Of a stretch of DNA of 64,000 nt, positions 22,396-63,935 are shown piece after piece. A model generated the notes under the pieces. The model did no database searches, was not told where the DNA came from, and saw only the letters and a program-made list of their open reading frames with translations. The translations under genes were made by a program, and so were the position numbers. The stretch comes from Enchytraeus crypticus (taxonomy: Eukaryota > Annelida > Clitellata > Enchytraeida > Enchytraeidae): NCBI GenBank assembly GCA_905160935.1, contig CAJHZI010000575.1:102501-166500 (forward strand). The letters run 5' to 3'. Each line of letters begins with the position of its first letter. Position 1 is the stretch's first letter.

Positions 22396-25300
22396 CTGAA
22401 AAGATCAATTATTATGATCAAATCTTCATAGTAATTATAGTAGTAGTAATAATGGAAGCAATATAAAAATATATTTTACAAATAATAATAGTAATAATGA
22501 TGATGCTGATGCTGATGATGATGATGATGATGATATTGATGATGATAATGATCATGATGATGATGATGATGATGATGATGATAATGATGATACGAATACT
22601 AATGATATTAATAATAGTAATAATAATAATAATTTTTATTATTATTATAAATATAATAATTTTAATATTTACACTATTTATAATAATAATAATATTTCTA
22701 ATAATACAGATATGTTTACTCATACAATAATTATGTCAGGGAAGCCACATTTATCGTAAACAATTATAGTTTTATGATCATATTTCTTCTTAGTTTAATT
22801 CTAAGACAAAGTATATAATTTCAATTCGAACTGTGAGGAAATCACAACACCAGTTCTTCATAATTTTATGCCAATATAATTATATTAATTATTAATTACA
22901 TTTAAATGTTAAATTACACCTCAATTATGACAATTGTTTAAATAAATATTCTTAAGTACCAATAATTCAGATATATTCAAAAGTACCAATACTAATAAAG
23001 TACCAGCATAAAGTATATGACTAAATTATATACACTGAACATTATGTAAACCCTGTCATGATGCCCGGTGTTCTAACAGTGAAGATATTCATTTTTGAAG
23101 AAAGTGTGGATTAAATTCAAAATTCGTTTGACAAAAATTCTTCTTATAGTGTGTATTCTATATGCTTCAATTAATTTATGTGTTGTTTCTGGAGCGACTA
23201 CGACCACAAACTTTCCTGTGGACCTTCATTGGCTTCAGATATCTTCTTCCTAGTTCTTGTACGAATATGAAGTATGGACGATAAGAAAGGAGGATATTCA
23301 GAAACTGAAAGCGTTCTAAATTTCGCTAGTGGGAAAAAGTGGAGAACCTCAGTTGGACCGACATGACTACGAACGAAGAAGTGCTTAACAGGATTTGCAC
23401 AAATAGACACATGATACATAGTATATGGACTATGGAGATGTTGTTTTATATAAAAAATACAAGCAACAGCAGATAGTTAGGCACTCCAGTACATAATGTA
23501 CAATGCCTACCATGACATAGCAATGCAAAACACAAATAGTTTCAGTTTAGTAGCGTCTTTTAATGTCATACGAGTTACTAAGTTTTATTTATTAAAGGAG
23601 CCACACAGATTCTTTTAGCAACCTTTCTTAGAGTTGGATCTACATGTTAGTTCAGTGCGGATAAAAGAGGAGCGAGTAGATGATCAGAGATATAAGGAAC
23701 TTGTTTTAATTGGTTTGTTATCCGGTAATGGAGAGAAATCTTCAAAAGTGGACTCATCGCTATGAAAGCCTGACTTTTAGCTAATCTTAGACATGCTTCT
23801 AGTCGGTTAAGCAGTAGTTAAGCTCCTATAAAATCGTGAGGCGTAGAGTAGTTTACTGAGAGTGCAGGCCTGGAACCCTCTCTGAAGAAGTGTTCATTGG
23901 ATGGAAACTTTGTACCCAAAGAGTATAGTGCAAAATATAATGTTCGAATATGAGGATGCAAGACAAGGTCAAGAAAAGAGGAAATTGCAAGAAATTATTA
24001 ATCTTAAGCATTTTGTATCAGATCACTATTTCTGTACCTTTTAGACAATGCAATTTAATTGTCTGACTCCAGTGTTTGGTCATCTGAAGAGAATATTTAA
24101 AGATTTTCTTCTGTCTAGTCACAGATTTTTTACTTTATAAGCAGGGGCCTAGTATGCGTAGCCCAGTTTTCTATGTGAATTAATTATATTAAACCAAAAT
24201 ACGATGATAAAGTACGTATATAAACTGAAACATTTAGTAGAGAGTTTTTTGAAAGCAATGTATCTAGATCAAACTCAACAACAGTACTTGCGGGAGGGCC
24301 AAAGGCAGAGCTTTTGATAAAACTTGAATCAATTGTTTAGGAGACGATGTTTGACCTTACAAGAAGAGAGTATGAGAACGATCTCATTAAAAGAAGTCAA
24401 TCGCTTTTTCGATATCTTACTCAGTGGTGCATTATTCTTTACCTAATCTAAACGAATAGTATCATTTAGTACCTACCTGAGTGTTACCCTGACCGATGGC
24501 GAATCCTATAACGACGGTACCACGCTCGTGGTTTTCACTCATGTGAACCACAGCACTGGAATCAATCTTCAGTCCTGGGTTCATTCCAGAGCTGTTGATG
24601 AAGTCCTCTGTCTCCAATCCTTCCACTGGACATAGTCGTCCACTCGCCAACTGAATCAGAGATCCTCGTTTGAAGTGGGCAGGGTAGTAGGATCCATGGA
24701 GCATTCCCGATGTGGACGATGAACTGATCATATTGGATTCCACGTCCGGAGATCCCAAAGACGATTCTGGGAATTGCTGATTGGATGCTGCTGAACTCGA
24801 TATCTTAGACCCTATAACATCAGCCGTTTTAATTACTGAATAGCCGCCATAAATAGCCTCCGGTGTATATGAAGGGATAGAGTCTGTCATCCGGGACTCA
24901 GATTGAATAGAAGCCGATGTATTCATTTTACGCATTCGTTGACATGAAACTGTCGATGAAATAGCTTTTCCATGATACTCTTTTGCAGCAGCAGTTGTAG
25001 AAGATGTTGAAACTGTGCACAAAAGCGGATCAGTAATATTTGAAGTCTTAATTCGACTTAAAGTTGAAATCGTTGGAATACTGAATGAAGCAGTCTTACT
25101 TGCTGGCGGCAGAGTAAAGTTTCTAAGCGATGAAGTAGTAGAAGGCGAATATGTTGAGGTAGATAACATTTCTAATACTTCAGATTGAACGCTGTACCCT
25201 GGTCCTGATATTTTCATGGTATCAGATCTTATTTCTGATCCTAAACTAGATAAAGCTAAAGCTCCTGATTCAGAATTTGAACTAGTTTTCAACACGGAAA

Positions 25301-26654
25301 TGAACCTTTCAGTAGAAGAGGAACCGGATGTTGCTAAATATTCGGCACTATCTGGACATATATGCCTTTTAACATCTTGGTTTGAGAAATACTCTAAATC
25401 CCGTGCTGAAAATGCTCTTTCGTTTCGTCCTACTTCCGAGAAAGACGGATTTGATTCCACCGGTCCATACTTCATTCCACTACTGTAGAACAATGACCCA
25501 CCAGTTAAGAAATCGAGCGGAGGCAGAGAATTCATTGTAGATATCAAAGATAAACGAGGTCTCTTTCGAAAATCTGAAATTGACGAGGAATTAGAGGCAG
25601 TTTGTTCTGCGTAAATTGTTTGCCGTTTAGCTAGTTCCGATACGTTTGTTTCAGTGTCTTCAACTTCTTGCTTGATTGCCTGAGCCATACGGAACTGTGA
25701 CGTTTCTCTTTCACTTCGCTCTGAAATCTCTCTTGTAGATATAGATCTAGATCGAAGATCGGTAGAGTTGCAGACTGATGAGAAAGGTTCCGCAGAGAAA
25801 GATCTGCTGGTCAAGTGAACTATAGATCGTAAAGGTTCAGCAGATGATGAAAGTCGAGACATCATCTGAGGTGTTTGCTCTCCTCTCCACGGAGACGCTT
25901 CTTGTCTGAGTGGAGGTAGTGGAGATGATTGGTTAGATAGTGAGAACATATAAGGGGACGTCGTTTGAAATGGTGGTATACGGTAAGTAAAAGAGAGCGG
26001 TCGATTATTGACGTGAGGTAAAAATTGGGGACATCGAGGCGCAAAGGTAACACTCTTCTCCAAGCTTGCAGCAGTGAATTTAGGGAATGGCGCCTGGATG
26101 ACCTGATTTACTTCAATATGACGAGCTTCAGGTGGTCTATTCCACGGAGCATTGCAGTCCAGTACAGGCGGAATTGGATGGAATCTCGAAAGAAGTTTAG
26201 TAGGTAACACGCTGCTTGTGACAGTTGGAGAAGTGTGAGATAAATTGAGTTGAAAGGGTGACGACGATCGAAATGTTCCCACTGAGTTAATTGGTGTAGA
26301 AATATTCTGCAGGTTATTAACGTAGACAACATCTTGTGAACCATGCCCGGGTGACCGTATAATATCTTCGATACTTCTATAGGAACCTTGAATGATTCCA
26401 AATGGAAGTGATGAAGAAGTTCTAGGTCTAAAAGTGGGCTGAAGTCCTTGATAGATATGTGTAGATTCTCTTACGGTATTGGCATTTTGTGGACTGGATT
26501 CAGAATGGACCTGACAATCCATGGATTCTACAATTGGCTTGAGCTTATACGGCACATCGCATGAAGTAGAGATGATAGCGTCTGAGCCCATCCTTCTGGA
26601 ATTCTCTTCCTCGTCACCTTCTTCATTGCCTTGAATTCCTTGCTTCTCACTCAT
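21946..26654 (-). CDS. ATXN1: Ataxin-1-like protein with complete AXH domain, 2 coding exons
   Basis: The coding exons are 26654-24477 and 22395-21946, joined in phase 0 through donor CAG|GTAGGT and acceptor TCTTTTCAG, giving 875 residues. The first ATG in frame (26654) is used. The N-terminal 650 residues are Ser/Thr/Pro-rich and look disordered, with an acidic start, an IKQE sumoylation-type site (about 327-330) and a basic KRPRL nuclear-signal candidate (about 364-368). The AXH domain starts near residue 656 with YYPAHFKRGSLIQLASGRL. It continues with PVEGLETEDF and LKIDSSAV up to the exon end, and resumes after the splice with VEHPFFVYNRGWSS and LVCRSLAIGDRCISI (to about 772). AXH domains of ataxin-1 and its paralogue mediate dimerisation and binding to transcriptional repressors such as Capicua. 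The tail carries RKSPRISDRK, loosely like the ataxin-1 C-terminal NLS/14-3-3 region. There is no polyglutamine tract. Confidence 0.92.
22484..22720. repeat. GAT/TAA trinucleotide microsatellite in ataxin-1-like intron
   Basis: GATGATGATGATGATAATGA-type runs merge into AAT/TTA runs. The Met/Ile-only open frames on both strands are artefacts. Confidence 0.95.
23255..23430 (+). pseudogene. Decayed LINE C-terminal fragment (31.6-kb family) in intron
   Basis: The plus strand reads YEVWTIRKEDIQKLKAF and, after frame damage, words equivalent to NEEVLNRI. These correspond to CETWTLRKEDIRKLEAL and TNEEVLERV of the element at 31620-32747. It lies within the ataxin-1-like intron. The rest of that intron (22721-24476) shows nothing I recognise. 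Confidence 0.65.
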
Positions 26655-27326
26655 TGACACTGACTTCCTACATGTAGTGGCGTTTCTCCTTTCGATGATC
26701 TCGAAATTACTTCAACAATTTCACTGAAACTTGAATAGGTCATTTCTATTACACTCTAGCATTCCATCATTTGATAGTATGAAGTGATATCAAATCTGAA
26801 ATCTGTAAGTAAATATTTTAGTCACTCTAATTAAATTAACACTTCGGCTGAAATTAAATTTCCAATAGTTTACAAACGTGAATTTACCAGAAAGTCAGGA
26901 AATTTATCAACGAATAATTATATAATATACAATATACTAAATATACAATTCAGAAATATTATAAGAATTGTTTAAATTTTGCTTGATTAAATGCTCACTT
27001 ATTGCAATGAGCAAAAAAACCCAAAAATTATTTTTTAATATAAGTGAAATAATATTGTTTTAATTGCGTTTTGATCTGATAAAGATTGTTCCTACATGAC
27101 AGTTCCAGTGGTGCGGAATGTTAGGTTTCCGTATTAGAACTGATAGATGTAATCTTCGAATCCGCATAGTAACTGAAAAAAATTAAACTGGCAACTGGCT
27201 TACGCAGAGACGAAACTCGGCTTTCTTAAATTTCTTTAGCCCTCTACCTCAGCATTTTTAGAGGTAAACCAATAAGCTAAGCACTGTTACGAAGTACATA
27301 TACATGTATATATGATGCTATTTCGA

Positions 27327-40926: not shown

Positions 40927-43900
40927 ATGATTTCTTGTATTCTCCTCATCATACCTTTATTGGCCCATCTCGCAGTATCGCGTAAGTCACTTTGAATTCA
41001 AAATTTGTCTGTGCCTACAGGGTTCAGAATAAAATTTATCGATTTCGTAGAAGTAGCTATGACTCGTGCTTTTTAATATAGCTCAATATGTAGTTGTATT
41101 GACTATTTTATCCACTGGATGACTATTCTTACTTAATTCTGATAATAATTATAATTATGTAAGTAGTGTACTAGTGTTTAGTTTAACGATTAGTTTTTTA
41201 AGCTTTTTTGTCTTTCTCTGCTTGTATTTTATGATTTTAAAATATACTAAGTAACTAGTTAACTAAATATTGTTGCATATTGTATTAATTCCATATTTAT
41301 CATTATTTTAGAAATGAATAATTGCAATTTTTACAGTGAACAGATTTTAATTTAATTGTAGACTTGCGGGCATGCGTCAGAGCCTTCCGGCCTCTATGTC
41401 CATTTTTCACATCGTTCTATGTACAATGTCATTGTGATTTTCGTGGAAAAAATATCTATCTATTTAACTACATAAGCATCCCATGTTTTAAAAAGCTAAA
41501 CAAGCTAAGGTTAATGTCAGTTTCCTCACTCGAAAGCAATGTCAGTGACGGGCGAGCCCAGGATTTGAACCCCGCACTTACTGATCCGCGGTCGAGTGTC
41601 TTACCGACTTCGTCACTGGCTCCAGCCAAATTAGAAATATGATATTCAGATTGATTCTACCTGGAAATTGCATTACAATAGTGTCTTACAAGATTGTGTT
41701 TAACTTTTTTAGAGACGTCACCATCAGAAAACATAGTTATTCTACACTCTGCAGATCAGCTACTGCAGTGTCCTATATCCAGCCAAGATTGTACAAATGT
41801 TCAGTGGAATCTCGTGACGACAGATGGAGAAGTCTTTGTAATTGGGAATGGGCTCAACGTTTATGATCAATATAAACTTGATTATCAAATAAATTCTACG
41901 GCGGGATACTGCATGCTGAATATAAAAAGTGCTGTAGTGGATGGTACCGCTGGTCACATCAACTGCTTAAGTTTGGATAATGGGAAACCTGTGAAAGCAT
42001 TTCACATCTATGTTATAGGTTTCATTGACTATTTCATTTATGTTTTTATGTCTAGTTTTAGTTTTGAGTCTGATTATAGAATCATTGAAGTATGAATTAA
42101 ACATTAACTTGTTTTAATTAGGACAAGAGGCTAATATATTTACGAGGTAAATATCCTTACCTAAATATTGAATTGCTGCCAAAGATTAGCATTTACAAAT
42201 GTCTGTTGAAGAAATTTCTCTAATTCATGATTACACTCATATACTGTGTATGTTCAACATGCGTACATTTGATTTGAACCTCTGCATCAGCCTTTAGTTT
42301 TCTATGAACCATGCTATATAGCAGTTTATGACCTACCATTTTGATATCTCTTCTCCATCTGATCACTTGAGTTGTGACCAGTATGTAAACCTATTCTCCT
42401 TTGATTATATTTATAGCATTGGACTGGATCTCTGTATGCTGTATTTGTTAAATATTGCTTGTTGGCTTGACTTTGGCTCATTATAGTCATTGACAACAAT
42501 AACACTCAAATTGCTGTTGATGTTGTACATTTCATTTCAGATTGACTTTCTCCAAAATAGTAGATTAATTCTATTATATTTAAAACCAATTATCATTTTT
42601 GCTTGTCTATGAGTATTCTGCTTCAAATTTACTCCTCTGTTTTACAAGTTATTTAGCAATTGACATTTATTATATAATTATTTTTTTGTTTTTGGGTTTG
42701 TATCACAGCGGCACCACCCAAATGCAGCTCCAATGTGCAGAACTCTGATGGTTACGCTAATCTTGGTGACTCTCTTACGTACACTTGTGATCTATCTTAT
42801 GGCGGCGGAGGAGCCACTGGTCTAGTGGAAATGATTTGGTTGAATAATCACATGTCTCCAGTTTCTGCAATTGCAGTAGGCGATCATAAACTCATATCCT
42901 CGACCTTTGAAGTGACGGTGAATAGAACAACGATTCCACAGTACGTGTGTCGTGTGACGTTTGGAAATAGGAATGGATCGACAACTGTTGTTAACCAAGA
43001 TTGTACTGTTAATCCAGTCAGTGTTAAGTGTAAGTGCTTGAATTTTTTAACCACTTCTTTTTTGTCTTGTAGGGGTATCAAAATCATAAACAATTTTTTT
43101 GTAACTTTGCTTGTTTTGGACCTGCCAGCAGTGAGATAACATGATAGATGGTAAATATGTATAATCTTAAACATTTTGTAGGGAAGTATGTTTCATCATT
43201 AAGTACTGTATTGTTTTTTAAATAAAATTTCATTAAGAATAATGTGAAATTTTACATTGAATCCCGTCTGTTGATAATAATCTATTAACTTAAAGTAATT
43301 TTTTTGTTAATATTTAGAAAATATGTGTATATTTTTTTAGTATCAGTAACAAATATTTTAAAACTATATTCACTTATGTATACATTTATATTCGTACACA
43401 TGGTTTAATTAATTTTTGTTCTATAGTCTGTCAGAAACTACTAATTAAGTAGTAAATGTCAATTGTGTTGTGTTATCTCCAGATTGGTAATATCAAGGCA
43501 TATATTTAGATTCTTTTAGTTTGATAAATTGTACCATGAATCTTTCTGCAACTGTGATTCCCTTTCTTGCTAACTCATTTCATTGAAAGCTAAGATATTG
43601 ACCAAAATATTAATCAATGTTTAAATCTAAATACAAATGAATACAAATATATTTGCCAGATTCAGTGAAAATCTTAAAGTATTTAAGAGAACTAATTAAA
43701 TGTTTAATCGAATTTGGGGGTGGGAAAGAATTTGACTGTTGTTGACAATTATTTAACTTACCTAAAAGAACTGTGTCAGACTAAGTAAAAATCTCATGCC
43801 ATATTATACAATATTATATGTATAATACCATGCAGTGAAAATTTATTATCCATTCACACAATATAATTTGTGAATGTATTGTATTTTACTGTATGGGTTA

Positions 43901-46900
43901 ACAAGCATTTTCATTATTATTTCTAGATGCTGCTACACAAGTGAGAATATCTGACGATGGATCAAATGTTGTTCCCGGGAGTAACATCTCGTGTATAGCT
44001 GATGGAATTCCTATTCCAAACATACGCTGGGTGGAATCATCATCAGGAGCTGTAGTGTTCAATGATTCCAATTTCTTTGTTGGCTTTGACAGCGCCGGGA
44101 CGTATTTCTGTGAGGCCTGGAATCAGTTGAACAGTCAGCCTATCCGATCCGCACCTGTAACATTCAACAACACATTTATGTTAGGTATGGCAATGAAGTG
44201 CATCAGTTTTATTTAAATTTCTCCTATGGTACTGATTTAGTACAATAACAAATATAATAGTGCTCAGATTTTCGTATCTTAATAGCTTTTTGTTCTTTCG
44301 ACTGTAAGTATTGTTATTGTTATGCTTTTTGTTCCGTCGACTGTGAGTATTGTTGTATGTGGACAAATGTAAATGAATCAAATTAACAATCATTTAATAT
44401 GATGATAATGTTAATGTAATGTTAGCTAATTATATTTCACGGACCAGACTGAGGATGGGCACTGGAGTTTTGTTGTCTCTAGGTCAAACGTTTGAACAAT
44501 CATCCTGCTGGTCTCATGCAGTCAGATCTATCTCTTCTGAAGAAGCAACCATGCATATAATTAACTACTTTAGAGTTTCTGTGACTTATTGCATGAAGCG
44601 GTGCTCACATATATTCCCTTCTATTATAACTATTATTGTTAACTTATGACCTATTCCTCCTAATAAGAAGGAATACACGGATTTGCATCTAGACCATCTC
44701 TTACTTTATTGTTGTGTAACAGAAACGGACTTTTGAACAAGCTCAACTAATTTAATTTATTTGAATGAAATTTTATGATGTTTATATTAAGCAATTATTT
44801 AACATGTAAGTAAAAATACTGCGTTAATATTAATTGTTATGTGATCATGAAGATATACTTTTTGTACTGCAATTTATAAATTGATTGAATTTATACATTT
44901 ATTGAAATATTCTAACGAGGCAATGAAATTATTTATACTTGAATGCTTTTTTCTGTTGGCAGAAAGGCCGCAGTCTGCTGCTTTCGCTGCTTGGATTGTC
45001 CCTGTTGTTATATGCGTGCCACTCGCAGTCCTTCTCGTCATCATCATCCTGTGTCTCGCGTGTCCTTGCTGTCCTCTGAACAGATCCATCAAGGAACGAA
45101 GCAACAACAAGTACCCTGTGAAAGGTTTGTTTGACGCTAACAAGGTTCCTAATAATAAATACAATAGCATAGAATATAATAAATATAATATAATAGCGTA
45201 GGGGTAACGTCATGAAGTTTTAAATGACAGATCCTGAGGTGAATTGAACCCTCGTGAGTTCGAATCCCGGCCGCGCTGATCTGAGAGTAAAATCTCGACA
45301 TTCACTGGACTGGTTAAACGGAAGATGGTCTAAATTGCCTAACGGTTTGAACATGTGGTATTAAAAAGTGATAGATATCAACATAGTTGATCATTTCACT
45401 CTAATGTGTGTTTACTTTTTTATAATAATAATAAAGGTTTACGTCCACTTCCTCATCCAGGGATGATGTCAGGAACGTCAATATACACTATCTTTACTAC
45501 TGTATATGTAGTAGCTACCTAGAGTCAGTAGAGTGTTAACTAATTTTGAAAGCATTCATACTTTATGTAGACGATCTAGATTCTCGTTTAATTGTTATCT
45601 TCAATTGATGGATATATGTTAAGAAATATAGATATATATTAATATAACGTGTAGTCTGGCATAGCACAAGTGAAGCAAGTTAACACTCTTTAGCTTTTTA
45701 TTAAATATATCAAGATGATAATTTATGGCATACTATTTGAGCATTTGAGGTATGATTAAAGTAATATTTGAACATCTTCACAATTAAACAGTTGTATTAG
45801 TAAATTACCACTGTCGTCCATGACACTACTCTCTATGGAGCCCAAGATGAAACAGATTTTTGCAAGTGTCCAGCCACTGTCATTAATTAATCTTCACTCA
45901 TATATTGTGAAAAAAATGTCTCCGGAATGACTGCTGTAGCTAATAGAATCATGAAGTAATTTCAGGATATTTCTTGTCAGTAGTTAATACCTCCTTTTAC
46001 TTCTATAGCGTGATATTACTCCACCTCCACACTTATACAGGTTGTAATGAATGACAGTCTAAAATCAAATTCTCTTTTGTAAAATACTTTTCCTATTTAT
46101 AAGTTTGTTAATGATTATATGTGTAGTGCTATGTGTAATTTTGCTTTTTTGTTTGTTTCATTTACAGAGAAGATGAGGTATGTACTAAAGAATCATCATT
46201 TCAGAAACATAAACGGCACAGTGTTTAATTCAGCTGCACTATATTACTTTTGTTATTTTTGCTACATTAACTAATAAAGTCTGAAAGCCAACATCAGAAA
46301 GGGCATTCGGTTGGTAAGCGCCTAGAATCCAGAAATTGCTACAAAAATTTATCCCAACACTAGTTAAACTTGGATTCAAGGGAAGATGATGATTATGATG
46401 ATGCACTAACTAATAAATCTTGATTGAATTACTAGTATGACAGTAGCACTCTAATTGTTGTTATTGTTATTATTATTAGTATATAGCGATTTTTATGTTT
46501 AATTTGATCAAGAAAGCTTGTCAATTGCAAACTATTGTATTTATAAAACTAATTCTAGGTAGCATTGAAGATTTTGCTTATAGTATAATATTGTTTAAAA
46601 TAATTATTTAAAGTATTGTAACTTAAAAATGTTTGAAATGTAAATATAATCAATCAATCTATTTAACATTGTTCTATCTATGAATATCGTCCAGCTGCTC
46701 CAGATGTACATTTCATTGTAAATGATCCTTGCTCAGCACGGAGTATTTAATATATTACTTTTGTATTGGCTTTTTTCGTATCATTCCACAGCATGTTTCC
46801 TCGCTTAGTTGATGTTTCCACAGTCTGCATATCGGATTGTAATTTTCATCGTATGTTATTGTGGACTCCGGTGTCCCTGTAATTAGGTGTTGTTATCATA

Positions 46901-48341
46901 CTCTGTATTACACTGAACATTTGGGTCACTCTTTATCGTGCTCCTGTCGCAGACCTGATGAGAAGCAGAATGGACTGAGCATCGTTCCTCTACAGTCCTC
47001 ACCCGGTGCCGAGTATCCTGAGAACTTCTCCAATCCCAGGCCTAGGCCGCGCTCTTCAACGAGCAACAGGGCCAATCTGTCCAACAATGACGACTCGTTC
47101 TCCACCCAGGGCTCTTTGAATCAGAGCACCCTCACGCAGCACGTCCCCGCTCCCTCCAAGAAACCTCTGGTAGGGATTATGACTCTTATTATGATTATGA
47201 CTATTATTATGATTATGATTATTATGACTATTATTACGATTATGACTCATGACTGTGACTATTATTATGATTATGACTTATGACTATTATTATGATTATT
47301 ATGACTATTATTACGATTATGACTCATGACTGTGACTATTATTATGATTATGATTATTATGACTATGATTATTATGACTATTATTATGATTATGACTATT
47401 ATTATGTTTATTATTATGACTATTATTATGATTATGATTATTAATTATGATTATTACTATTTTATGATTATGACTATTATTATGATTATGACTATTATTA
47501 TGATTATGTCTATTATTATGATTATTACTATTATTATGGTTATGACTATTATTATGATTATAATTATTATTACTCCTTTGCCAATGTTTTATTCATCAAA
47601 AAGTTAGTAAGGTTTTTAAAAATATGAGTAAAATGTTCCTTTAAGAATTTTGTTATAGTTCACACATATTAATTGTACGTTCTATGCAGCCTTTAATGCT
47701 TTAAATTCTATTCCAATCTAGGTAAAATCCCAATTTTAATGTCGCTAGTCATCTATTCAAATCTACCTCTATACCGTGTTTCTTATATGACCATTTTTTA
47801 TTTATTCTAATGATATTCTATTTTAAATTATACTGCAAAAAGTTATTAACTATATGCAACTAAAGGTTTTGCATACTTTTATTGGTTTTAATACTATTTC
47901 ATTACCTTCCTTGTTACTTTAAATAAATAGTAAATTTTTGAAATATTTCGTTAGAGTTGACGGACTAGTTAAGCCTAAAATTTAGTTAATCCCTTTCTCC
48001 CACTATTTTGCCACTTCAAGAGTAGATAATGATGTCTTACATTTATATTGTACAAAGTTATCACTGTTTAAGTAATAGAAATAGTTGAGATGTATAGACA
48101 ACTTATTTACAACTTTTACTTGCAGTGTGATGTTTAAATTTGAATATTAATAATAGTTTTTGAGTTATATTTTGATTGACAGCTGTCAGGAGCAGGTGCT
48201 GGTAGTTCACCCAATGATCTTCTCTACGTTGATGTTGCTAGTAACGCCTCCTCGCCTGATATGGCCAGCAGGCCACGCCCCATGCGACCTGGCGCGAAAC
48301 CTCAGTCTAAGACTATCTACACCCCTGTTCTTCGAAGCTAA
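40927..48341 (+). CDS. Ig-superfamily receptor: signal peptide, 3 Ig domains, TM, ITIM and ITSM tail
   Basis: Eight exons (40927-40981, 41713-42018, 42709-43029, 43927-44184, 44963-45124, 46168-46177, 46953-47169, 48183-48341) give 495 residues with every junction in phase. Residues 1-18 are a signal peptide (MISCILLIIPLLAHLAVS). Exons 2, 3 and 4 each encode one Ig-like domain with paired Cys and Trp: C38/W50/C103 in the first, YTC..MIW..YVC in the second, ISC..IRW..YFC in the third. All are bounded by phase-1 introns. TM is about 323-345 (WIVPVVICVPLAVLLVIIIL), followed by CPCCP, a palmitoylation-type Cys cluster. The roughly 145-residue tail holds LLYVDV (Y458), matching the ITIM consensus, and TIYTPV (Y489), matching the ITSM consensus TxYxx(V/I). 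An inhibitory or adhesion receptor acting through SH2-domain proteins is inferred. The family is not named. Confidence 0.85.
41493..41628 (-). mobile_element. SINE family 1 copy in Ig-receptor intron 1
   Basis: A full-length minus-strand copy from AAGCTAAGGTTAATGTCAGT to CGTCACTGGCTCCAGCC, ending about 85 bp before exon 2. Confidence 0.88.
41713..42018 (+). CDS. Ig-receptor exon 2: first Ig-like domain
   Basis: The acceptor TTTTTTAG precedes 41713 and the donor ATAG|GTTTCA follows 42018. Phase 1 at both ends. It encodes QTSPSENIVILHSADQLLQC through HIYVI. The usual Tyr before the second Cys (DxGxYxC) is replaced (DGTAGHINC), so the domain is atypical. Confidence 0.82.
45196..45417 (+). mobile_element. 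SINE family 2 copy in Ig-receptor intron 5
   Basis: This is the least damaged copy. It starts GCGTAGGGGTAACGTCATGA, has a B-box GAGTTCGAATCCC, then GACATTCACTGGACTGG, and ends GTTGATCATTTCACTCTAAT. The others are at 15330 and 34544. Confidence 0.8.
45421..45482 (+). repeat. Short hairpin repeat copy
   Basis: TAATAATAAAGGTTTACGTC continues with CACTTCCTCATCCAGGGATG and ATGTCAGGAACGTC. It recurs at 38618-38680 and 61148-61210. ACGTCC/GGACGT and TCATCC/GGATGA can pair as a small stem-loop. Confidence 0.65.
46168..46177 (+). CDS. 10-nt microexon of the Ig receptor
   Basis: The sequence TTTACAG|AGAAGATGAG|GTATGT gives a 10-nt exon that converts a phase-1 donor (exon 5) to the phase-2 acceptor needed by exon 7, encoding E-K-M plus two bases. 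Without it, exon 5 to exon 7 would be out of frame. It sits just inside the membrane-proximal tail. Confidence 0.7.
46290..46405 (+). repeat. CATC/GATG-tailed repeat fragment
   Basis: CATCAGAAAGGGCATTCGGT, GCGCCTAGAATCCAGAAATT and GGATTCAAGGGAAGATGATG match the family, in tail orientation, inside intron 6 of the receptor. Confidence 0.8.
46436..46475 (+). repeat. Foldback-element terminal fragment
   Basis: ATGACAGTAGCACTCTAATT followed by GTTGTTATTGTTATTATTAT is nearly identical to the terminus at 56925-56965 of the 56-57-kb foldback copies. Confidence 0.7.
46953..47169 (+). CDS. Ig-receptor exon 7: membrane-proximal tail
   Basis: The acceptor CTGTCGCAG precedes 46953 and the donor GTAGGG starts at 47170 (phase 0). 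It encodes RPDEKQNGLSIVPLQSSPGA, a Pro/Arg patch PRPRPRSSTSN, and a Ser/Asn-rich linker ending PAPSKKPL. Confidence 0.8.
47175..47575. repeat. ATTATGACTATT-type microsatellite in intron 7
   Basis: About 400 bp of TTATTATGATTATGACTATT units starts almost at the exon 7 donor. Met/Ile/Thr-only frames here are artefacts. Confidence 0.95.
48183..48341 (+). CDS. Ig-receptor last exon: ITIM and ITSM
   Basis: The acceptor GATTGACAG precedes 48183. Phase 0. It encodes LSGAGAGSSPNDLLYVDVAS (ITIM tyrosine Y458), an intervening Pro/Arg segment, and SKTIYTPVLRS (ITSM tyrosine Y489), then TAA. The two tyrosines are 31 residues apart, so this is not an ITAM (6-12 spacing). The ITIM-then-ITSM order near the C terminus resembles PD-1-type tails. 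Confidence 0.82.
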   Translation: MSGAGAGSSPNDLLYVDVASNASSPDMASRPRPMRPGAKPQSKTIYTPVLRS

Positions 48342-51335
48342 ACTGATCGAATAAGAGAAACGAGAAAGGACTAAGAACTAAGTTGTAAGATTCAGTGATG
48401 ACTCATGACAGGGAAAGAGTTATAGTATGACTACAAAAATAATCTTTACAGTAAACAAAGGAAGAGAATATGTGTTTTCTTTAAATATGCTATTGTCTTA
48501 ATCTTTAATAGAAAAGTTGAAATCAAACTTAATTAATTGATCACCTGAACTTCTTCTAGTATATTTGTATTCTTATTCATATTCATCTCATTCTAAACTC
48601 ATTGATTTATGTGGTACCTTTGTTTAGCCAAAAAATGTTTACTGTGCTTGCCACTATTGATGGCTGCACGTGTAAGTCCATGTTTGTGCTTTTGATCATT
48701 TAACTAATGAACTAATGTTACTGGTTTTTAATCGGTAATACTCTGTAATTTGAAACGATGATAGTTATGATAGTGAATAGTATGCTTTTATGATCGATTG
48801 ACAACAACAATGACACCAACACACTGTTCTACTCCCATTCATGAAACCACCCCAACTATAAAATCGATCAGCAGAATAATAATAAAAAGTCTATTAAACC
48901 GGTTAATATTGGGTAGTATGGGTTATAATATGCACTATTTAATAAGTGCATATTATAACCCATACTACCCAATATTAACCGGTCCCAGGGTTGCACAATT
49001 TCAATATAATGTGATAATGTAATTCTGTTGCTATTGTATTTGGACACAATACAAGTAACATTCAATCAATCTACGAGATTAGCTTTACTCAGTACAAGAG
49101 TCACCAGGCTAGATTAGTTCTAGGTTCCCTCCATCTAAGAGTTCTGAAACTTTATCTTGTATTTTATTCATGCAATTTTAGTGTATTGGTCTGACAGGAG
49201 GAGCATTTAGCTTACTTTGATGCTTTTATAAATGAAAGTTTTTGCATGTTTTTCAAATTCTCTTGCTATAAATGAAAAGCTTAATATTTCTAAAGATTTC
49301 TTTATTGTCCTGTGTTTCTCTCAGATTAAAGGGATTCTCTCCATAGAGATGTTTAGTACTGTTGAGTGCAGTAATACTAGACAGTGCCTAATGCTAACAT
49401 TTAAATACTATCACATTCTATACTCTTTGTACTATTACAGTCACCATCATCATCGTCCATTAAATCCCAGTTTAACTAGGGTCGGGATACAAATGGACCT
49501 TCTGACTCCTCTTTGTCCCATACCATATCAAAATCTCTTCCATTCGTTTTAGACAATTTTGTGGAAATTTCTGGAACCTAGCGCTCTTTGTGTTATTACA
49601 GTAATGTGGATTAAAAGAATACATCTTCAATATATAAATATCTAAGTCCTTTTTGACTGAATCGGTTACTTTGTTCACATTTAGTATAATTTCATAAAAA
49701 ATAATGGAACTTAAATGTATTTTCTTTAAATGTATTTTTATGTAATTTTGTGTAACTATTTGTATTAATATTACTTACTTGTATGTAATTTCGCGCTTCA
49801 TTCACATAATGTTTGTCTGATTGATTAGATATGTTGTTTGATAATAATAGATTTATTTATTGAATGATTGATTGAATATTTCATGCATCTGCTATTTATC
49901 ACCAAATCTTCAGAAAACTAGATTTGCTAATATGTCTCGATACTAAGCTGTTGTGTAATGTCTGCATCATTTTATATGTATAATTTTATTGTAGATTTCT
50001 TTATCTGATGTTTGGCTGCCTGGTTGACTTGATTGATATTTCATTTTAATATTAAAATTTTATATGTATTTGCAAAAATGTTCCAAAATCTGTTAGAAAA
50101 ATTTGCCTATGATTTCTATGGACTTATTGAATTTTAATATCTTGATTTTATAATTGATTAAACATGGGATCTGATATACATGTACAATTGCTTAATCCTG
50201 TAAGTGCATTCTGTATTTTAAAATATTTTGTATTGTATATATTTTAGCAGAGTTTTTGTACGACTTACGCAGACATTTTTTTCTTTTGAATTAGTGCTAT
50301 TTGGCTCTATGACTTTCGATGCAAATCTCACAAGCAAATGGCTGCATTCTGATTTTGCATAATATACTTTGCCTTGTGTCTGTGGCTGTGCGGATAAATA
50401 TTGCATTATTCTGACTGATATTATATATTTTTACTGTCATACTGAAATTTCTCGAGAGATCTGTTTATTTTTTTACTCTCTAGCTTTGCGATAGCCCGTT
50501 CTACTGCAGTGCCCATTTAGACTGATGTTACAAGTCCCCCGACTTCCAGTATAATTAAGTTAAGAATATTACTGATGCTCTGTTGCTGAATTCCAGGGGT
50601 TTTGAGTTTGACATTTCTTTCTTTCAAAGGGCACTTTCGGTAAATGTCTGCCAACGAAAATCTGCTTCAAAGCCGTATTTTTCTGACTTGAGCGTTTAGC
50701 ATTCGTTCTGAATTCCATTGGTGCTCAGTTCGAATGACAAATTCTAGTTGTCTGGTGATCTGATTATGAATTTGTATTTCTTTTTGTTTAATAGATTTTA
50801 AATCGCTGTATAGGTCTCATTCTTTTTAAATGATCAAATTGATTACGATGAGCGACACTGAACATAAATTTGTGCCTTGATTATTAGTACTTCTCTTTAT
50901 GTATAGGCCTACTATGTAACCTAAGTTAGGCATGAGAGTAGCATACTGAATATTTGCTAATGACAGTTGTTTTGCAGATTTGATTATGTTTGAACTATGA
51001 AATGCTGAAGATGACATTAAATCTCCGTATTCAGATTACTATCTGAGATAAGATTAAATATCTATAGGTAAGTGTATCGGTTATCAAACAATCAAACTAG
51101 TGGAGTAAGTATCTAAACATCAAATGGCTTTATAACTCCACATTACAAATTTATGTGAGGTAATATATATAACTCATTTATCTATAATTGCATTTTATGT
51201 TATGTCACACTGTATTTTGTGTATAGTACTGTGTATAGACGTTTATGCTTTTATATATTTTAGATCATCTTTAGAGTTATTAAAAAATTGTGAATGTGAC
51301 TGAATACATGTGTCTTTGTAGTTGTTTATTATGAA
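48342..51335. other. Intergenic; 3' flank of the Ig receptor
   Basis: A candidate AATAAA at 48881 lies just before a perfect palindrome. 49440-49590 is a CATC-tailed repeat copy (CCCAGTTTAACTAGGGTCGG, TTTCTGGAACCTAGCGCTC). The rest is AT-rich with no gene recognised. Confidence 0.55.
48898..48983. repeat. Perfect 39-bp-arm palindrome
   Basis: 48898-48936 (begins ACCGGTTAATATTGGGTAGT) and 48945-48983 are exact reverse complements around the 8-nt loop ATTTAATA. Neither arm matches another repeat in the window. Confidence 0.95.
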
Positions 51336-56968: not shown

Positions 56969-57007
56969 TAAAAATTAGTAATCATTGGTAGCACTTGATG
57001 TTTAAAA

Positions 57008-60000
57008 ATGGCGGTGATTTATTTATCAACAAAACTTTCTATCTTAATTTTTATTTTTTACATACAGTTAGGCGAAAATGGCAGTTCGGGCGATGAATTC
57101 AATGTTGAAACTGATCGTGTAATAGATAACACTGATGGCGACGTTTTGGCAGGTTTTGGTGATTTTAATGGAGACAAATTAGTCGACATATTCGTCCTAA
57201 GAAATTTAGGTATATTCCTTGTGACTAATATTTGTATGATTTTTTACGGAAATAAAAGATAAATATTAATCAAATTGGTTAGTAATCTAAAGAATCTCCT
57301 CACGGTGTGTAGTACCTAGGGCAGGTTCATGGCAAAATGTTCTTTCAAGTATTTTTATCCTATGTGTTTCGTTTCATATCCTGTACGAATTGGTCGTTAA
57401 ATAATTCTACAATTCAAATCTCGACCTTCCCCTGCTCTTCTTTCTATAGCGTAATATATTCTATCAGTTTCCTCTTGTTATTAACTTAGCTGAGTACTTC
57501 TTCATTTTAATTTTAGGAGTTAATTCATTTAAAGGAGCCAGTCACAATCAAATTTCTCTAACCATATCTATTTAATTTTCTCCATATAATTCATTTCACA
57601 CTTCAGGTCTCTGAATCTCATCCTTCTGTCTAAAAATATTTGTGCTGTATGAATATAGTTTTATATTCTACAATATGAAATTTACTTTAGTATTATTTAT
57701 GACATTAAAAATTATGATTTTAAAATATCTTTGTAAAATATATGTGCAAGTTAAATTTAAAGCTCATTTTGTGCATTGACCGACTACTATTATGTAGTAA
57801 CGATGCCTAATACTAATAAGTAATCGTGTGCATATGTATGCAAGTTGTATTTTTAGTTCAACTTATGCGCAGGGTTGTCTATCGATCTAGTAGATAAAGA
57901 CAGAATTTTGTTAGCTATTAAGTGTATTGAAAGCAGGTATATAGTTGTAACATTTGACAATATTCACATTGCATATTGAAAATTATCTTGTAATTCAATA
58001 ATTAGTGCAATTGGAACACAAAATCCAAATTACACTATAAATCTTACTAAATGATGAGACAATGAAATCATATTTTAATTAATATTTTCTCTCAATATTT
58101 TATATTTTCTAGGTACGCAGATTGATGTGCTACTAGCTGTACAGGATAAGAAATATCGGAGACACACTCTTATTAATGGAACACTGGAACAGAATCGGAT
58201 TACTGGTCTAATACCTGCAGACTTTGATAATGATGTTCAAATGGATTTGCTGCTAATAACTGAGGAAAAAGCTAAATCAGTTGATCTCAAAAAGAAGTTT
58301 GCTATATATTGGGGAATTGAACATAATACATCATTAGGCAAGTATAGTTGTCTTGCTATAAATGTACTACAAAGCTATGCTATAATTATGCTAAAACTAG
58401 ACTATAAATTCACTTCTAAAGGCATAAGTATGTACTGTATATTAAGTCTTGTACAAATTTATTTTAAACATAAAGAATAAAAAATTATTAACTTAAATTA
58501 TATTAATTGCAAATTGATGTATTAGTAACCCTGATTTATAAATATTTTACAGGCATGATTGAATTTTTAACATTGTCTCTATTTTAAATTTAATTTTTAT
58601 GATTAGAATTAGGGAAACTGGTTTTACATGTCTGAACTGGAATTGTGTTTTTTGTAACATATTTGCAGAAGACATTCCATTTGAGTTTAACGAAACCTTT
58701 AAGGATGATCCTGTATTCTTTATGTAAGTATTCCGTGGCGCATATAGTAAAATATAATTAATTCTAGAACTCCCTACCTCCTGATCTTTTACTATTATTA
58801 CTTTTATTATGTCTTTTTTAACTAATGCCATGGTCTCTAAAAGGCCCTGTTCTAAAAATAGATAAGATGCTTTATTTAATAATGTTTTTAATGAAGCTTT
58901 TAAAATTGAGACTCTGCCATCTGAGAAGCCTCATCAGCAAATGTGTAGTGTATGCAGACAGCATTATAGCGCTAGAGTGCAATTGAGAGGCTCTGCCACA
59001 GAAATGTTTTTCATGCTGATCCCGTTTGACATCTTTTATTCTCCTGCCCAATTTATTAGGCAAGTATAGTTGTCTTGCTATAAATGTACTAAAATTAGAC
59101 TGATCAATTCTGAGGCAATAAATATCTTTGGTTGTTTTAAAAAAATTTTTATAGGGCCCAGGATCTCAAAAGCAAGGGCATGAAGATGTAGCTGCTATTG
59201 TTACTACTGTTACTATTTAAAAATCCCAGACATTAGGCCATGGTGTCCTATAAATACAATTTAAACTAAAGAACATTTGTAATTGCAGCCTGGCAGGTTG
59301 AAATCATTCAGTTTAATATTATCAGAAATATTCTTATAGTTGGCTGGAGCCAGTGGCGACGTTGATATGCTACTCAACCGCGGATCAGTATGTGCGGGGA
59401 TCAAATCCTGGGCTCACCCGTCACTGACGTCACTTTCGCGTGGGGAAACTGACGTTTACCTTAGCTTTTTTAGCTTTACCAGTTATTACGCATGGATAAT
59501 TATTTATCTACTATCAGGAACAGCACGTCACTTCAGCCTACACTGCTAGCCACTGTAGGTGAAACGAATGTAATATGGACTTCAAAAGGCAAAAACTTCA
59601 CAAAATCAACAGAGTATTTTAGTGGAGTTGAAATGAAGGTACCACATTCTTGTGCATTCATAGATCTACAAGAAGATTACAATGCAGGTCTGTATTCTAT
59701 TTTTATTGGAACTCTTTGTACTTATAGTTTGATTTATTTGGTAGCTTAGCATTCATATAATTATCTGATGGAAACCTTCCAAAATACATACCTTATATCT
59801 TTCTAGATTTTTGTATACTCAGAATTTGGTCCATATTGAATTTATCAGAATAAGTTTATTTAGTATTTTTGCACTGTATTTGCACAGCACAAGCTGTGAG
59901 TATTAGTTTTTTTGTGAATCTTACATATGAAGAAAAGCTAATTTAATGTGCTTTTTAATGCTGTACATCTGTGCTGTATATTTGTTATTCTAACTTCTCT

Positions 60001-60206
60001 CTTTCTTAGTGCATTACCCATTGGCAGGTCCATGGCATATAACTTCTCCACATATTTCCATCCTCTGCTTCTCTCTTCATACATGGGAACATTGGAATTA
60101 GTTATCAGATTATCCAATGATCCAGCATCTCTTGTCTCTAGTCTCTAATTTTGCTAACTTGAGTATTATTTACTAGCTGTGAAGCCTATAAACTGATGGA
60201 CTAAAC

Positions 60207-60301
<95 letters not shown>

Positions 60302-63300
60302 GAGGTATATAAATAGAGGTCATAGAAGGTAGAATGGAAGGAAAAAGAGGCAGGGGCAGGCCGAGATTAGGTATGTTAGATGATTTAAAGACCCACTCAT
60401 ATGTGGAAATGAAGAGGAAGGCGGAAGACAGAGAAGAGTGGAGGCGTTATGTACCATGGACCTGCCAGTAGGCAGTGCACTAAGAGAGAGAGAGAGATAT
60501 ATAATATATATATATATTTATATATATATTTATATGTATACTTATTTGTTATATTTATTTATTTATTGATATATTTAAATATACAGAAAGGTGCTTTATA
60601 ATGTGGTATGCTTTGAAATGTTCTTTTGCTGAAATATTATTATGATGAATTAATCAATATAATTAAGTTTTTGTAGAATGTTTGAAGAATATTATTTATT
60701 TATTATACTTGAAAATCGTTATGTTTTATGTACAGATCTCCTCCTAACAAACAAGACTGGGTTTTCTCTTTATGCTAATGGAAAAGTAAGTATTAAATAT
60801 TTTTACTTCTATTTAAAGGTACTGTATTAATTTCTAAGTGGAATCCAATTTTCTATCTTTGTAATTAGGAGACAGTCCATGAGAAAACAGCAATAATTTT
60901 TAAAACTGTTAGACTTTTTCTGTTGGTTTTGATCACTTTGTAATAGATTATTGAGTAATATATATCTATTGAAAGTAGAAATATAATATGTAATATATCC
61001 TGGAAACAGTTGTTGAAGTTCCTAATTGCCTAAATGGCCTAACTGCCGTAAATTATAGATACTATCATACTACAGCCTACAGCAGTCTGCTTAGATAATG
61101 TGATTGATGACATTGTGTTTTATTGTCATCAACTCTTTACGCAGTTAAATAGTAATAATAAAAGTTTAACGCCCGTTTCCACAAACAAGGATGATGTCAG
61201 GGACGTCAAACAGAAGAAACGAATAAATAGCTATAACGTTCTGCCAGTAATAGCTTTTCAATGCTACGTCGAGTATTGTGAACATACCTGATGTAACAAA
61301 ACTCGTCTAGCTTTGTACTGCAGATCTATCTGTATTACATCAACAATGCTATATCCTGCTTTACTGGCCAAGTTGCTATTTCAATGGTTTTCTTTCTGTC
61401 CATTCTACTCGAATTATCATCACTTTGTTTAAGTACTGCTTCTGACTCTCTGACTGTACCAGCAATGCTATTATTATGCTCTGTCACAATGTACTTTTTC
61501 TTTGTCCTGATATTTCAGTTTTCTACAGTGATATTTAAATTTTCTACTATTTTTATTTCTATTGCTTGTGGCTCTTCTCATGTTGTCTAGGGACATTGAA
61601 GAATAGACCAATCTTTAACTGTGTGTGTCGTAAGAGGCGACTAAGTATGAATTGATGAAGACAACAAGAAACGACCTTAAAGGGCTTGTTTTTTCAAGTT
61701 ATAGGCTACATAAGATATAAGTATGTCATAGACTTTTGGTAAATGGATTAACCTGTTTATCTGTGAAGTGCTGTCTACGGAGTGTGGTAGCTGATTGTAA
61801 GTATGAATAAGTACTCTGAGCCTGCTTTTAGCAGAATACTTGAGAGAGAATATTGTGACTAACATGAATTTTTTATTTTCTTTGTACTATAGTTTGACAA
61901 GGTTGATACTTTCTATGAAATTCCTCCAGGAGCGAAGTACACGGGACAGTCTAGCTTTTCAGATTTCAGTAAGTGCAGAATATGATCCCCATGACAGATA
62001 TACAGCAGAAATGATTTTATTTATTGTATTTCCTGTGAATTATAAATCACATGACATTATTATTCCCATGACAGATATACAGCAGAAATGATTTTATTTA
62101 TTGTATTTCCTGTGAATTATAAATCACATTCTGTTTGTATCAATCAGTCTTTATCTTACATTCTGGCCTATATATTTTTGGTTTATTTTATTTTTTGCTA
62201 TAGAAATTGCTATATTTTCTCTTGTTAATTTCTTTTGTTTGGTTGGTGAAATAAAATCACATAAGGTTCACACATAGATACACAATGGTACATGGTACGA
62301 TGGTAGATCACATAGTATTTATGAAAAGTTGTTTAAATTACTTAGCCAAACTTAGGTATCTATTTTCTGTATAGGTCCCCTACGTGTCAACCTCCAAAAC
62401 TATGACATATTTTAGTAGAAAATTTTTTATATTGCAAAGTAAATTAGCTTGTTTCAGGGTTTTTTCTGAGCAATTTATTTGTTTAATTATTTAGTAAACT
62501 CTCTCCTAGTATTAATTTAGATTCAGAGTAAGCAGCTTCATCCCTCTATCAGGTTCTGCCTTGTAAAGGGATGGTGTGATTTATACAATGACATCTATGT
62601 TGATTTATTTTGATTTATAAACATCTAACAAATATCCAACACTTATGTGATGTGATGTGTGTATGTAGAACAAGATAAGAGAATAGATGACTTGTTTGTG
62701 ATGTGATGTGTATGTGTAGATCAAGATCGTAAAATTGATTACTTGTATATGGCATGATGTATATGTGTAGATCAAAACGGCAAGATAGATCACATTATAC
62801 CAGTGTGCAATGAGGAAGACTGTAGTGGACTAAGTGAAATAAAATACAGAGATAAGAACGAGGTAATAATTCTGTAAACATTAAGCATTTCCTGCTCGTT
62901 GAATAGTTTGCACTTATAACGTTTTCACTGTACATTTTATAGTGAAATTTCGAACTTAATAAAAAGATTAAAACCTAATTAACTTTAAAGCCAGGTTCCT
63001 GACTATAAAACATATCAGTGATGAGCAGGCTCCGGATTTGACCACAGTTTGACAACTAATTAGTATATGAGCGACTCAACCAGTTGCTCTTAATGAATGG
63101 GATAGGATATTATTCTAGAATTCTCTGATGACCTATTATTTAACTATGCTGATAAATGCTATCAAATTATATCCATTTCAAACGTTTTAAATATGCTTTA
63201 CATTTTGCTAAATTGGTTAGGAAAATTTGGTACCACTTTAAGAAATTGTCAGCATTATAATATTTACTGTTTTAATGCTGTTTCAGAAGCTTTGATAGTA

Positions 63301-63735
63301 TGTTGGAGATATTTATGTATGGCATTAGTATTATGAAAATCCTATGAGTCAAGAAAAAGGGTAATGAACTAATTTCTTGGTGCTCAGTTTAGCTGACACT
63401 GGAGCTTCGAATAAGGAAACGGACTTGAACTTTAGATTGTTTAGGTTTAGGATTCTTGTATACAGAGAATTATTGATATTTCTAACCGTAATAAACATGA
63501 AAGTTTTACATGTTTAAATCCGATGTAGAAAGAGGCTTTAAATTTGTAATAATATGTTTGGTTTAATTTTTTTGCAGTCGATAACACTATGGAGTTCAGA
63601 CACAGAGAATAAATGGAGATTTCCCAGTAATCCTATGACACCTGTAGAGAACCTGAAGCTTTACACTACTCTACACGTGGGTGACTATGATATAGACGGC
63701 TTTCCTGACCTCCTGGTTGTAATGATCGATAAAGA
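57008..63735 (+). CDS. ITFG1: ITFG1/TIP homologue (T-cell immunomodulatory protein), 5' half, 8 exons seen
   Basis: Exons are 57008-57209, 58113-58337, 58669-58723, 59518-59687, 60736-60785, 61893-61968, 62771-62862 and 63578-63735; the gene continues beyond the window. The ATG at 57008 starts a hydrophobic signal peptide (ILIFIFYIQLG). The product then follows the family order: VLAGFGDFNGDKLVDIFVLR, PADFDNDVQMDLLLITEE, YWG, FNETFKDDPVF, VPHSCAFIDLQEDYNAD, GQSSFSDFNQNGKIDHIIPVC, and LYTTLHVGDYDIDGFPDLLV. The repeated DFDGDG/D-type loops are FG-GAP-like calcium motifs of an integrin-alpha-like beta-propeller. The human relative is a single-pass membrane glycoprotein; its TM would lie outside this window. 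The family segment DFNGDxxPDIFG between exons 3 and 4 is not found. Intron 2 appears to use a GC donor. Confidence 0.92.
58113..58337 (+). CDS. ITFG1: ITFG1 exon 2, ending at a probable GC donor
   Basis: The exon runs from GTACGCAGATTGATGTGC to AATACATCATTAG, with GCAAGT as the next six bases. A GC donor leaves one base and joins exon 3 in frame (Glu-Asp-Ile). The nearby GT (GTATAG, 58342) would leave two bases and create a stop soon after the splice. The exon holds PADFDNDVQMD, the second propeller loop. Confidence 0.85.
59341..59482 (+). mobile_element. SINE family 1 copy immediately before an ITFG1 exon
   Basis: GGAGCCAGTGGCGACGTTGA to TTAGCTTTTTTAGCTTTACC, B box GGATCAAATCC. It ends about 35 bp upstream of the exon at 59518, so it may occupy the branch-point region. 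Confidence 0.87.
59998..60062 (-). repeat. Short 3' end of the 31.6-kb LINE family
   Basis: TTAGTGCATTACCCATTGGCAGGTCCATGG on the plus strand is the reverse complement of the family 3' terminus. It lies inside ITFG1 intron 4. Confidence 0.7.
60210..60298. repeat. (TA)n microsatellite in ITFG1 intron
   Basis: TA dinucleotide run with a few AATA interruptions, flanking the LINE 3' end at 60315. Confidence 0.95.
60315..60482 (+). mobile_element. 5'-truncated LINE 3' end (31.6-kb family)
   Basis: The plus strand encodes EVIEGRMEGKRGRGRPRLGM, LDDLKTHSYVEMKRKAEDRE and EWRRYVPWTCQ, identical or nearly so to the C terminus of 31620-32747. It then gives GCACTAAGAGAGAGAG. Near-identity implies that the two copies are recent. 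It lies in ITFG1 intron 4. Confidence 0.92.
61148..61210 (+). repeat. Short hairpin repeat copy
   Basis: AATAGTAATAATAAAAGTTT, AACGCCCGTTTCCACAAACA and AGGATGATGTCAGGGACGTC match 45421 and 38618. It lies in ITFG1 intron 5. Confidence 0.65.
61585..61850 (+). repeat. Repeat head plus LINE-like 3' end
   Basis: 61585-61690 has GAAGAATAGACCAATC, GTCGTAAGAGGCGACTAA and GACCTTAAAGGGCTTG. 61795-61850 has AGCCTGCTTTTAGCAGAATACTTGAGAG, like 29630-29660. Together they suggest one decayed element ending about 40 bp before the exon at 61893. Confidence 0.5.
61988..62140 (+). repeat. 77-bp tandem duplication just after an exon
   Basis: CCCATGACAGATATACAGCA through TGTGAATTATAAATCACAT occurs twice (61988 and 62065) with no visible differences over most of its length. 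Confidence 0.92.
62645..62793 (+). repeat. 51-bp tandem triplication of an intron acceptor and exon start
   Basis: Three units place an AG acceptor at 62667-62668, 62718-62719 and 62769-62770, exactly 51 bp apart. After each comes a related codon string: KQDKRIDD, NQDRKIDY and NQNGKIDH. Only the third is followed by the open exon; the first two meet an in-frame TGA after a few codons. Confidence 0.85.
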
Positions 63736-63809
63736 GTTAGTATTAGGAGGTTATATTTTGACTAGATTTTATCAATTATTATTCAGATGTATAATTTTAC
63801 TGCTCCAAG

Positions 63810-63935
63810 ATCAAAACCAAAGTCAGAAAGGGCACTTGGTTCGTGACTAGGCTCCAGGATTTGCTACAAAATTTTTAATCCCGACCCTAGTTAAACTAGC
63901 ATTCATGGGAAGATGATGATGATGATGATAGTTTT
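63810..63935 (+). repeat. CATC/GATG-tailed repeat fragment
   Basis: GTCAGAAAGGGCACTTGGTT, GGCTCCAGGATTTGCTACAA and CCCGACCCTAGTTAAACTAG end in GATGATGATGATGATG. It lies in the last visible ITFG1 intron. Confidence 0.82.

Follow-up and report, generated by a model that had tools for sequence, protein, structure and literature searches.

A 64,000-nucleotide window of the genome of the annelid Enchytraeus crypticus (the whole stretch analyzed, from contig CAJHZI010000575.1) carries on its forward strand, at 40927-48341, an eight-exon gene for a predicted type I membrane receptor with three immunoglobulin (Ig)-like domains and two tyrosine motifs close to its C-terminus. Its mode of action is probably that of the inhibitory receptors on vertebrate immune cells. 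More specifically, we regard it, with somewhat better than even confidence, as an inhibitory-type, phosphotyrosine-docking Ig receptor that would act via a tandem-SH2 phosphatase. This assessment draws on the gene structure, on an old sister gene that retains the two motifs together with all ten ectodomain cysteines, and on loci in the same genome at which two SH2 matches are followed by protein tyrosine phosphatase (PTP) matches. The predicted protein is composed of a V-like domain D1, a domain D2 with an extra cysteine pair, an I-set-like domain D3, one transmembrane (TM) segment, and a cytoplasmic tail of about 146 residues. We infer expression, ligand, phosphorylation, partner and inhibitory sign as follows. 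A ligand would engage the ectodomain and a Src-type kinase would phosphorylate Y458 in LLYVDV and Y489 in TIYTPV. The doubly phosphorylated C-terminus could form a bidentate site recruiting an SHP/corkscrew-type tandem-SH2 phosphatase, which would damp nearby kinase signalling. Bidentate docking of such phosphatases is a feature of vertebrate receptors that combine an immunoreceptor tyrosine-based inhibitory motif (ITIM) with an immunoreceptor tyrosine-based switch motif (ITSM).

Gene structure and conservation of the tail motifs

The spliced product of the window gene comprises 495 amino acids. All introns are bordered by GT and AG, and the exon entry phases (0, 1, 1, 1, 1, 1, 2 and 0) leave each Ig exon bounded by phase-1 borders (Table 1). 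An earlier note on this DNA, made from the letters alone, had proposed eight exons in consistent phases that encode a leader, three Ig-like domains, a TM segment and a motif-bearing tail; our analysis bears out this model, the leader and the TM segment being assigned by eye. Its description of exon 8 as the only long tail exon was wrong, as the tail is encoded across exons 5-8 and exon 7 is longer (217 bp). Ranked against every GT of the window, six of the seven donors reach the 93.7th percentile or better; that of exon 2 (ATAG/GTTTCA) is weak, at the 40.8th percentile.

Directly after the TM exon lies a 10-bp microexon, which is supported by a counterpart of equal length and phase in the sister gene described below. 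Length and phase are kept in the pair, while the coding sequence has changed. In view of the strong donor and of this counterpart (C446:61918-61927; C446, C330, C552 and the like are our labels for other contigs, and unlabelled coordinates are window positions), we rejected the possibility that the microexon is an artefact. Omission of the microexon with the standard exon-5 donor yields a truncated protein. With an alternative, weaker exon-5 donor, the reading frame is preserved through the remaining tail, the two motifs included, so that the absence of the microexon need not entail loss of the motifs.

The tail contains four tyrosines (Y364, Y392, Y458 and Y489), the last two of which are positioned as the earlier note had given them, with both motifs inside the last 40 residues. 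As sequence patterns, the ITIM and the ITSM-form motif make an unusually clean pair. The label ITSM for TIYTPV describes a match in form only; the defining partners of an ITSM are adaptors of the SAP/EAT-2 type. When the 146-residue tail was shuffled, at least one ITIM arose in 15% of the shuffles and at least one ITSM in 1.0%, while both occurred together in 0.11% and two of either kind in 1.1%; for the sister tail, both motifs together were seen in 0.03%. The motifs for this test were chosen after the fact, and the figures for the motifs by themselves are no more than suggestive.

A genome-wide search with the window protein returned 13 matches at E<=0.1. Six were its own exons, five lay in order on contig C446 (D1, D2, D3, TM and C-terminal exons), and one weak D3 match each was found on C330 and C552. 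The C446 model, built from overlapping loci, has nine exons (57281-64373), encodes 487 residues plus a stop, and has GT-AG borders at all introns. It differs from the window gene by an extra intron that divides D3, and its fifth exon begins inside a short direct repeat, with a second copy of that acceptor just upstream. Overall, the two proteins are 43% identical. Identical among aligned residues are 1/18 in the leader, 54/100 in D1, 46/107 in D2, 39/87 in D3, 20/53 in the TM exon, 23/61 across residues 369-443, and 23/49 in the last exon, and all ten ectodomain cysteines (10/10) are kept.

In the tail of the sister protein Y458 and Y489 are retained, Y364 is replaced by leucine and Y392 by histidine, and there is no further tyrosine. 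The motifs read LLYADI for LLYVDV and TIYTPV in both proteins, with a spacing between the two tyrosines of 31 residues in the window receptor and 28 in its sister. Eight of the last nine residues are identical, compared with 7/22 in the stretch between the motifs. Of the 12 motif columns 10 are identical, as against 53 of the 146 tail columns (permutation P 0.0007), and this conservation indicates that the motifs are more than chance. The overall dS (synonymous divergence) of 2.63 against a dN (nonsynonymous divergence) of 0.58 points to an old duplication followed by purifying selection; by part, dS was 2.43 for D2, 1.88 for the tail and 0.85 for the TM exon, with D1 and D3 not estimable. The duplication thus looks old and the motifs look to have been retained by selection. 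The earlier note had held that orthologues lacking both tyrosine motifs would refute its proposal; among the relatives inside this genome, the closest keeps both and the distant C552 gene does so only in part.

The ectodomain and the wider family

The Ig identity of the ectodomain is supported by its Cys/Trp pattern (Table 1; the pairing of the cysteines in D1 and D2 is presumed) together with low-confidence structure models. The closest sequence matches in the PDB all fell on D3, led by the MALT1 Ig domain (E 2.8e-4) and followed by contactin-1, neuronal growth regulator 1 and neurotrimin. A single-sequence model of D1 (mean model confidence, pLDDT, 60.5) matched mostly V domains by title (CD8, T-cell receptor, antibody), none of them at E<=0.001, and that of D2 (pLDDT 62.9) matched LAIR-1, KIR2DS4 and LILRB1 among many unrelated beta-sandwich structures. 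These fold matches are weak hints only, since both models are low in confidence. With an Ig-type ectodomain, a single TM segment (by eye) and a tail that contains (I/V/L/S)xYxx(I/V/L), the window gene has the general make-up of an ITIM-bearing Ig receptor.

With the C446 gene as the query, C330 was matched in D2 and D3, and C552 in D3 (E 7.7e-4 to 0.02). The C330 domains in turn matched C552 at 58% in D2 and 69% in D3, the D3 of the window and C446 genes at E 4.9e-4 and 7.4e-4, and the C446 D2 at E 0.037. C330 (~2756219-2757778) and C552 (~1014029-1018070) form a second, more distant Ig receptor pair with the same D2-D3 layout, and the C330 D2 has the four-cysteine pattern of D2 in the window and C446 genes. 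The C552 tail, encoded in one exon with the TM segment, contains five tyrosines and keeps a TxYxxV (TSYNPV) as well as a C-terminal YxxL (DVYVDL). In shuffles of this tail, TxYxxV appeared in 2.5%.

The four family genes found thus lie on four contigs. Counts of large families in the genome search are lower bounds, and further weak matches beyond the four genes had E values of 0.009 to 0.95. No second copy was present in the 228,944 of 231,444 bases searched on the contig of the window (2,500 read N; best other match E 0.12), and we rejected a local receptor gene cluster for this part of the contig. A separate I-set search yielded 150 scored matches; of eight loci viewed, several were muscle-type by eye, and this search was not used for the definition of relatives.

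Candidate phosphatases and competing explanations

The genome contains 91 SH2 matches (134 candidates, all scored) and at least 150 PTP matches (150 of 236 candidates scored). Comparison of the two match lists revealed four loci (Table 1) with two SH2 matches and then PTP matches on the same strand within 8-15 kb, which is the order found in SHP and corkscrew. The presence of such loci makes inhibitory signalling plausible. One or two SHP genes are expected per invertebrate. As a side observation, four SH2-SH2-PTP loci might represent an SHP expansion. Another SH2-containing gene, of the SOCS6 type (SH2 plus SOCS box; L022:3228-4940, corresponding to C482:199728-201440, minus strand), is situated on the receptor's own contig, some 49 kb further downstream; its best PDB match is the SOCS6 SH2 domain (E 6.7e-51).

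Table 1 Exons and tail motifs of the window receptor gene, and SH2-SH2-PTP loci elsewhere in the genome.
Feature	Position	Strand	Description
Exon 1	40927..40981	+	Start codon and hydrophobic signal-peptide-like leader, assigned by eye
Exon 2 (phase 1-1)	41713..42018	+	D1, V-set-like Ig: frame C38-W50-C103, extra pair C45/C85
Exon 3 (phase 1-1)	42709..43029	+	D2, Ig-like: frame C147-W164-C201, extra pair C126/C219
Exon 4 (phase 1-1)	43927..44184	+	D3, I-set-like Ig: C250/C289, W262
Exon 5	44963..45124	+	TM segment ~44992-45063 (by eye), Cys-rich juxtamembrane CPCCP
Exon 6	46168..46177	+	10-bp microexon, donor at 99.8th percentile
Exon 7	46953..47169	+	Ser/Pro/Asn-rich mid-tail; GC 0.57; 217 bp
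Exon 8	48183..48341	+	C-terminal tail, both tyrosine motifs, stop codon
LLYVDV, ITIM-type (residues 456-461, Y458)	48219..48236	+	Sister gene: LLYADI
TIYTPV, ITSM-form (residues 487-492, Y489)	48312..48329	+	Sister gene: TIYTPV
SH2-SH2-PTP locus	C136 442792-451318	+	Assigned from match order
SH2-SH2-PTP locus	C631 152199-143978	-	Assigned from match order
SH2-SH2-PTP locus	C410 1623716-1608810	-	Assigned from match order
SH2-SH2-PTP locus	C453 1602674-1590449	-	Assigned from match order

Several observations weigh against an inhibitory receptor of this kind. All Pfam Ig matches fall below the curated cut-offs, the best being D3 with Ig_2 (E 1.5e-5, 25.6 bits, cut-off 27) and D2 with ig (E 9.6e-4, also under the cut-off). 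Outside its own genome, none of 7989 scored proteins matched the receptor at E<=0.01, although animal proteins may be sparse in the collection searched. The C552 tail, the one tail read in the distant pair of genes, lacks a strict ITIM, and the ITIM and ITSM pair is not shown there. The TM-exon dS of only 0.85 means that the age of the duplication is not firm from every part of the gene. The four phosphatase loci look like SHP/corkscrew-type genes from their domain order only, and several of their SH2 matches cross stops, as intron-spanning matches do. Finally, YVDV or YADI and YTPV also fit the endocytic YxxPhi signal.

This last point underlies the main rival. Unphosphorylated Y458 and Y489 might bind the mu subunit of AP-2 and set the internalisation rate of an adhesion-type Ig receptor, without any inhibitory signalling. 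All the sequences concerned match Yxx followed by a bulky hydrophobic residue, and the C552 tail has two Yxx[VILMF] sites, although two such sites also occurred in 22% of its shuffles. Conservation between the sister genes, however, goes past YxxPhi, as it includes the two leucines before Y458, the threonine and isoleucine before Y489, and the aspartate at Y458+2; residues preceding the tyrosine belong to the ITIM and ITSM consensus. We consider sorting an unlikely sole function of the motifs.

The second rival, to which we attach a similarly low probability, is a neural or epithelial adhesion molecule in which the tyrosines of the tail would recruit SH2 proteins of an activating or adaptor kind (Src family, Grb2-type) instead of SHP, with no immune brake. 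The I-set-like D3 and its PDB matches after MALT1 agree with such a molecule, and the copies found are few, dispersed and old, which is nearer to adhesion genes than to immune repertoires. Against it, LLYADI is close to a textbook ITIM and the C-terminal order of ITIM and then ITSM is the layout of PD-1 and CD33.

An allorecognition receptor resembling Hydractinia Alr would be in keeping with the ITIM-type tail and with an ectodomain of three tandem Ig domains, each on a phase 1-1 exon and the distal one V-like; given four genes on four contigs and no second copy in the searched part of the window's contig, we judge it very improbable. The earlier note had read the gene as an inhibitory or self-recognition receptor: a non-vertebrate Ig receptor with an ITIM/ITSM-form pair under constraint is sustained by the C446 gene, and self-recognition is not supported, because the copies are spread over four contigs. 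Equally improbable is that the motifs are chance patterns in a disordered tail, a reading that we rejected, or that splicing leaves out the last exon. In favour, a lone ITIM turned up in 15% of shuffles and the exon-2 donor is weak; against, the motif pair is rare in shuffles, its columns are conserved, and C446 shares the last exon, its phase, the C-terminal ending and both motifs.

Comparison with known receptors and further observations

Vertebrate receptors of the PD-1/CD33 type resemble the window gene in being type I Ig proteins with a V-like distal domain and an ITIM followed by an ITSM-form motif near the C-terminus. The tyrosine spacing differs, with 31 and 28 residues in the two annelid proteins compared with about 25 and about 18 in the vertebrate type, and Pfam and PDB sequence searches with the receptor revealed no specific homology to these proteins. 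In oysters, IgIT signalling reportedly inhibits the antimicrobial response and CgIgIT2 is said to be an inhibitory receptor, according to titles in reference lists. In the section of a review that we consulted, CgIgIT2 of Crassostrea gigas is given five Ig domains and its motif is called an immunoreceptor tyrosine-based activation motif (ITAM), contrary to the title cited (PMC11999971). As described there, the oyster IgIT/CgIgIT2 proteins share with the window gene an Ig receptor architecture, a TM segment and a tyrosine-based tail motif (PMC11999971). The window receptor is set apart, by description only, by its three Ig domains, against the five given for CgIgIT2, and by its ITIM/ITSM-form pair.

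According to the part consulted of a second source, FcoR of Botryllus is a type I protein with a V-Ig domain, a sushi domain, two C2-Ig domains and a long tail with ITIM, hemITAM or YxxI/L/V motifs, encoded at 53 loci with polymorphic haplotypes (PMC12065747). FcoR and the window receptor have in common the type I topology, a variable-type Ig domain, a long tail and an ITIM-type motif (PMC12065747). The ectodomain layout is different, since no Pfam sushi match was obtained for the window receptor at E<=1, and the four genes found are dispersed, unlike the clustered FcoR family. The same excerpt reports that Hydractinia Alr candidate genes carry ITIM/ITAM motifs (PMC12065747). The 41 Alr genes described belong to one complex, in contrast to the window gene, around which no cluster was found.

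Because ITIM-bearing invertebrate Ig receptors are already established in oyster, Botryllus and Hydractinia, the window gene can be considered a new member. In a limited search of the open-access literature, no paper was seen, as judged by its listing, to describe an annelid ITIM Ig receptor. If an inhibitory receptor is the correct explanation, the range of inhibitory Ig receptors that combine two phosphotyrosine motifs reaches annelids, which would strengthen the case for ITIM-type braking as an old or repeatedly recruited module and not a vertebrate invention. The two genes would also provide a test case in a protostome, in which the conserved tyrosine pair would make peptide pull-downs directly informative. 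A further-reaching proposal, which we put forward as tentative and on the doubtful side, is that annelids possess their own small, old and dispersed family of PD-1/CD33-like checkpoint receptors of the ITIM-then-ITSM form, which would use tandem-SH2 phosphatases and serve as an innate coelomocyte brake evolved in parallel to vertebrates.

About 560 bases past the receptor stop codon, at 48898-48983, the window contains a perfect 39-nt inverted repeat with an 8-nt loop; an Rfam scan of the window returned no matches. On the minus strand at 24462-26711 there is an open frame of 749 codons, the end of which matches residues 1-69 of 116 of the AXH (ataxin-1/HBP1) domain (E 7.8e-10). Exons at 56999-63850 (+) appear by eye to be of the ITFG1/TIP type with FG-GAP-like repeats, and the last exon alone has a weak PF13517 match (E 0.0036, under the cut-off).

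Elsewhere in the assembly, the mitochondrial contig (15.2 kb) has TGA 12 times inside COX1. Its protein genes, named by eye and all on one strand, run cox1, cox2, cox3, nad6, cob, atp6, nad5, nad4L, nad4, an rRNA-sized gap, nad1, nad3 and nad2, which we take to be the usual annelid order. The mitochondrial evidence makes an annelid likely but falls short of proof. According to the portion of the source consulted, the annelid mitochondrial genes known share a single strand and keep to an order that is conserved in general (PMC4505326). Coding on one strand is likewise reported, in an excerpt of another paper, for brachiopods and others (PMC2728741).

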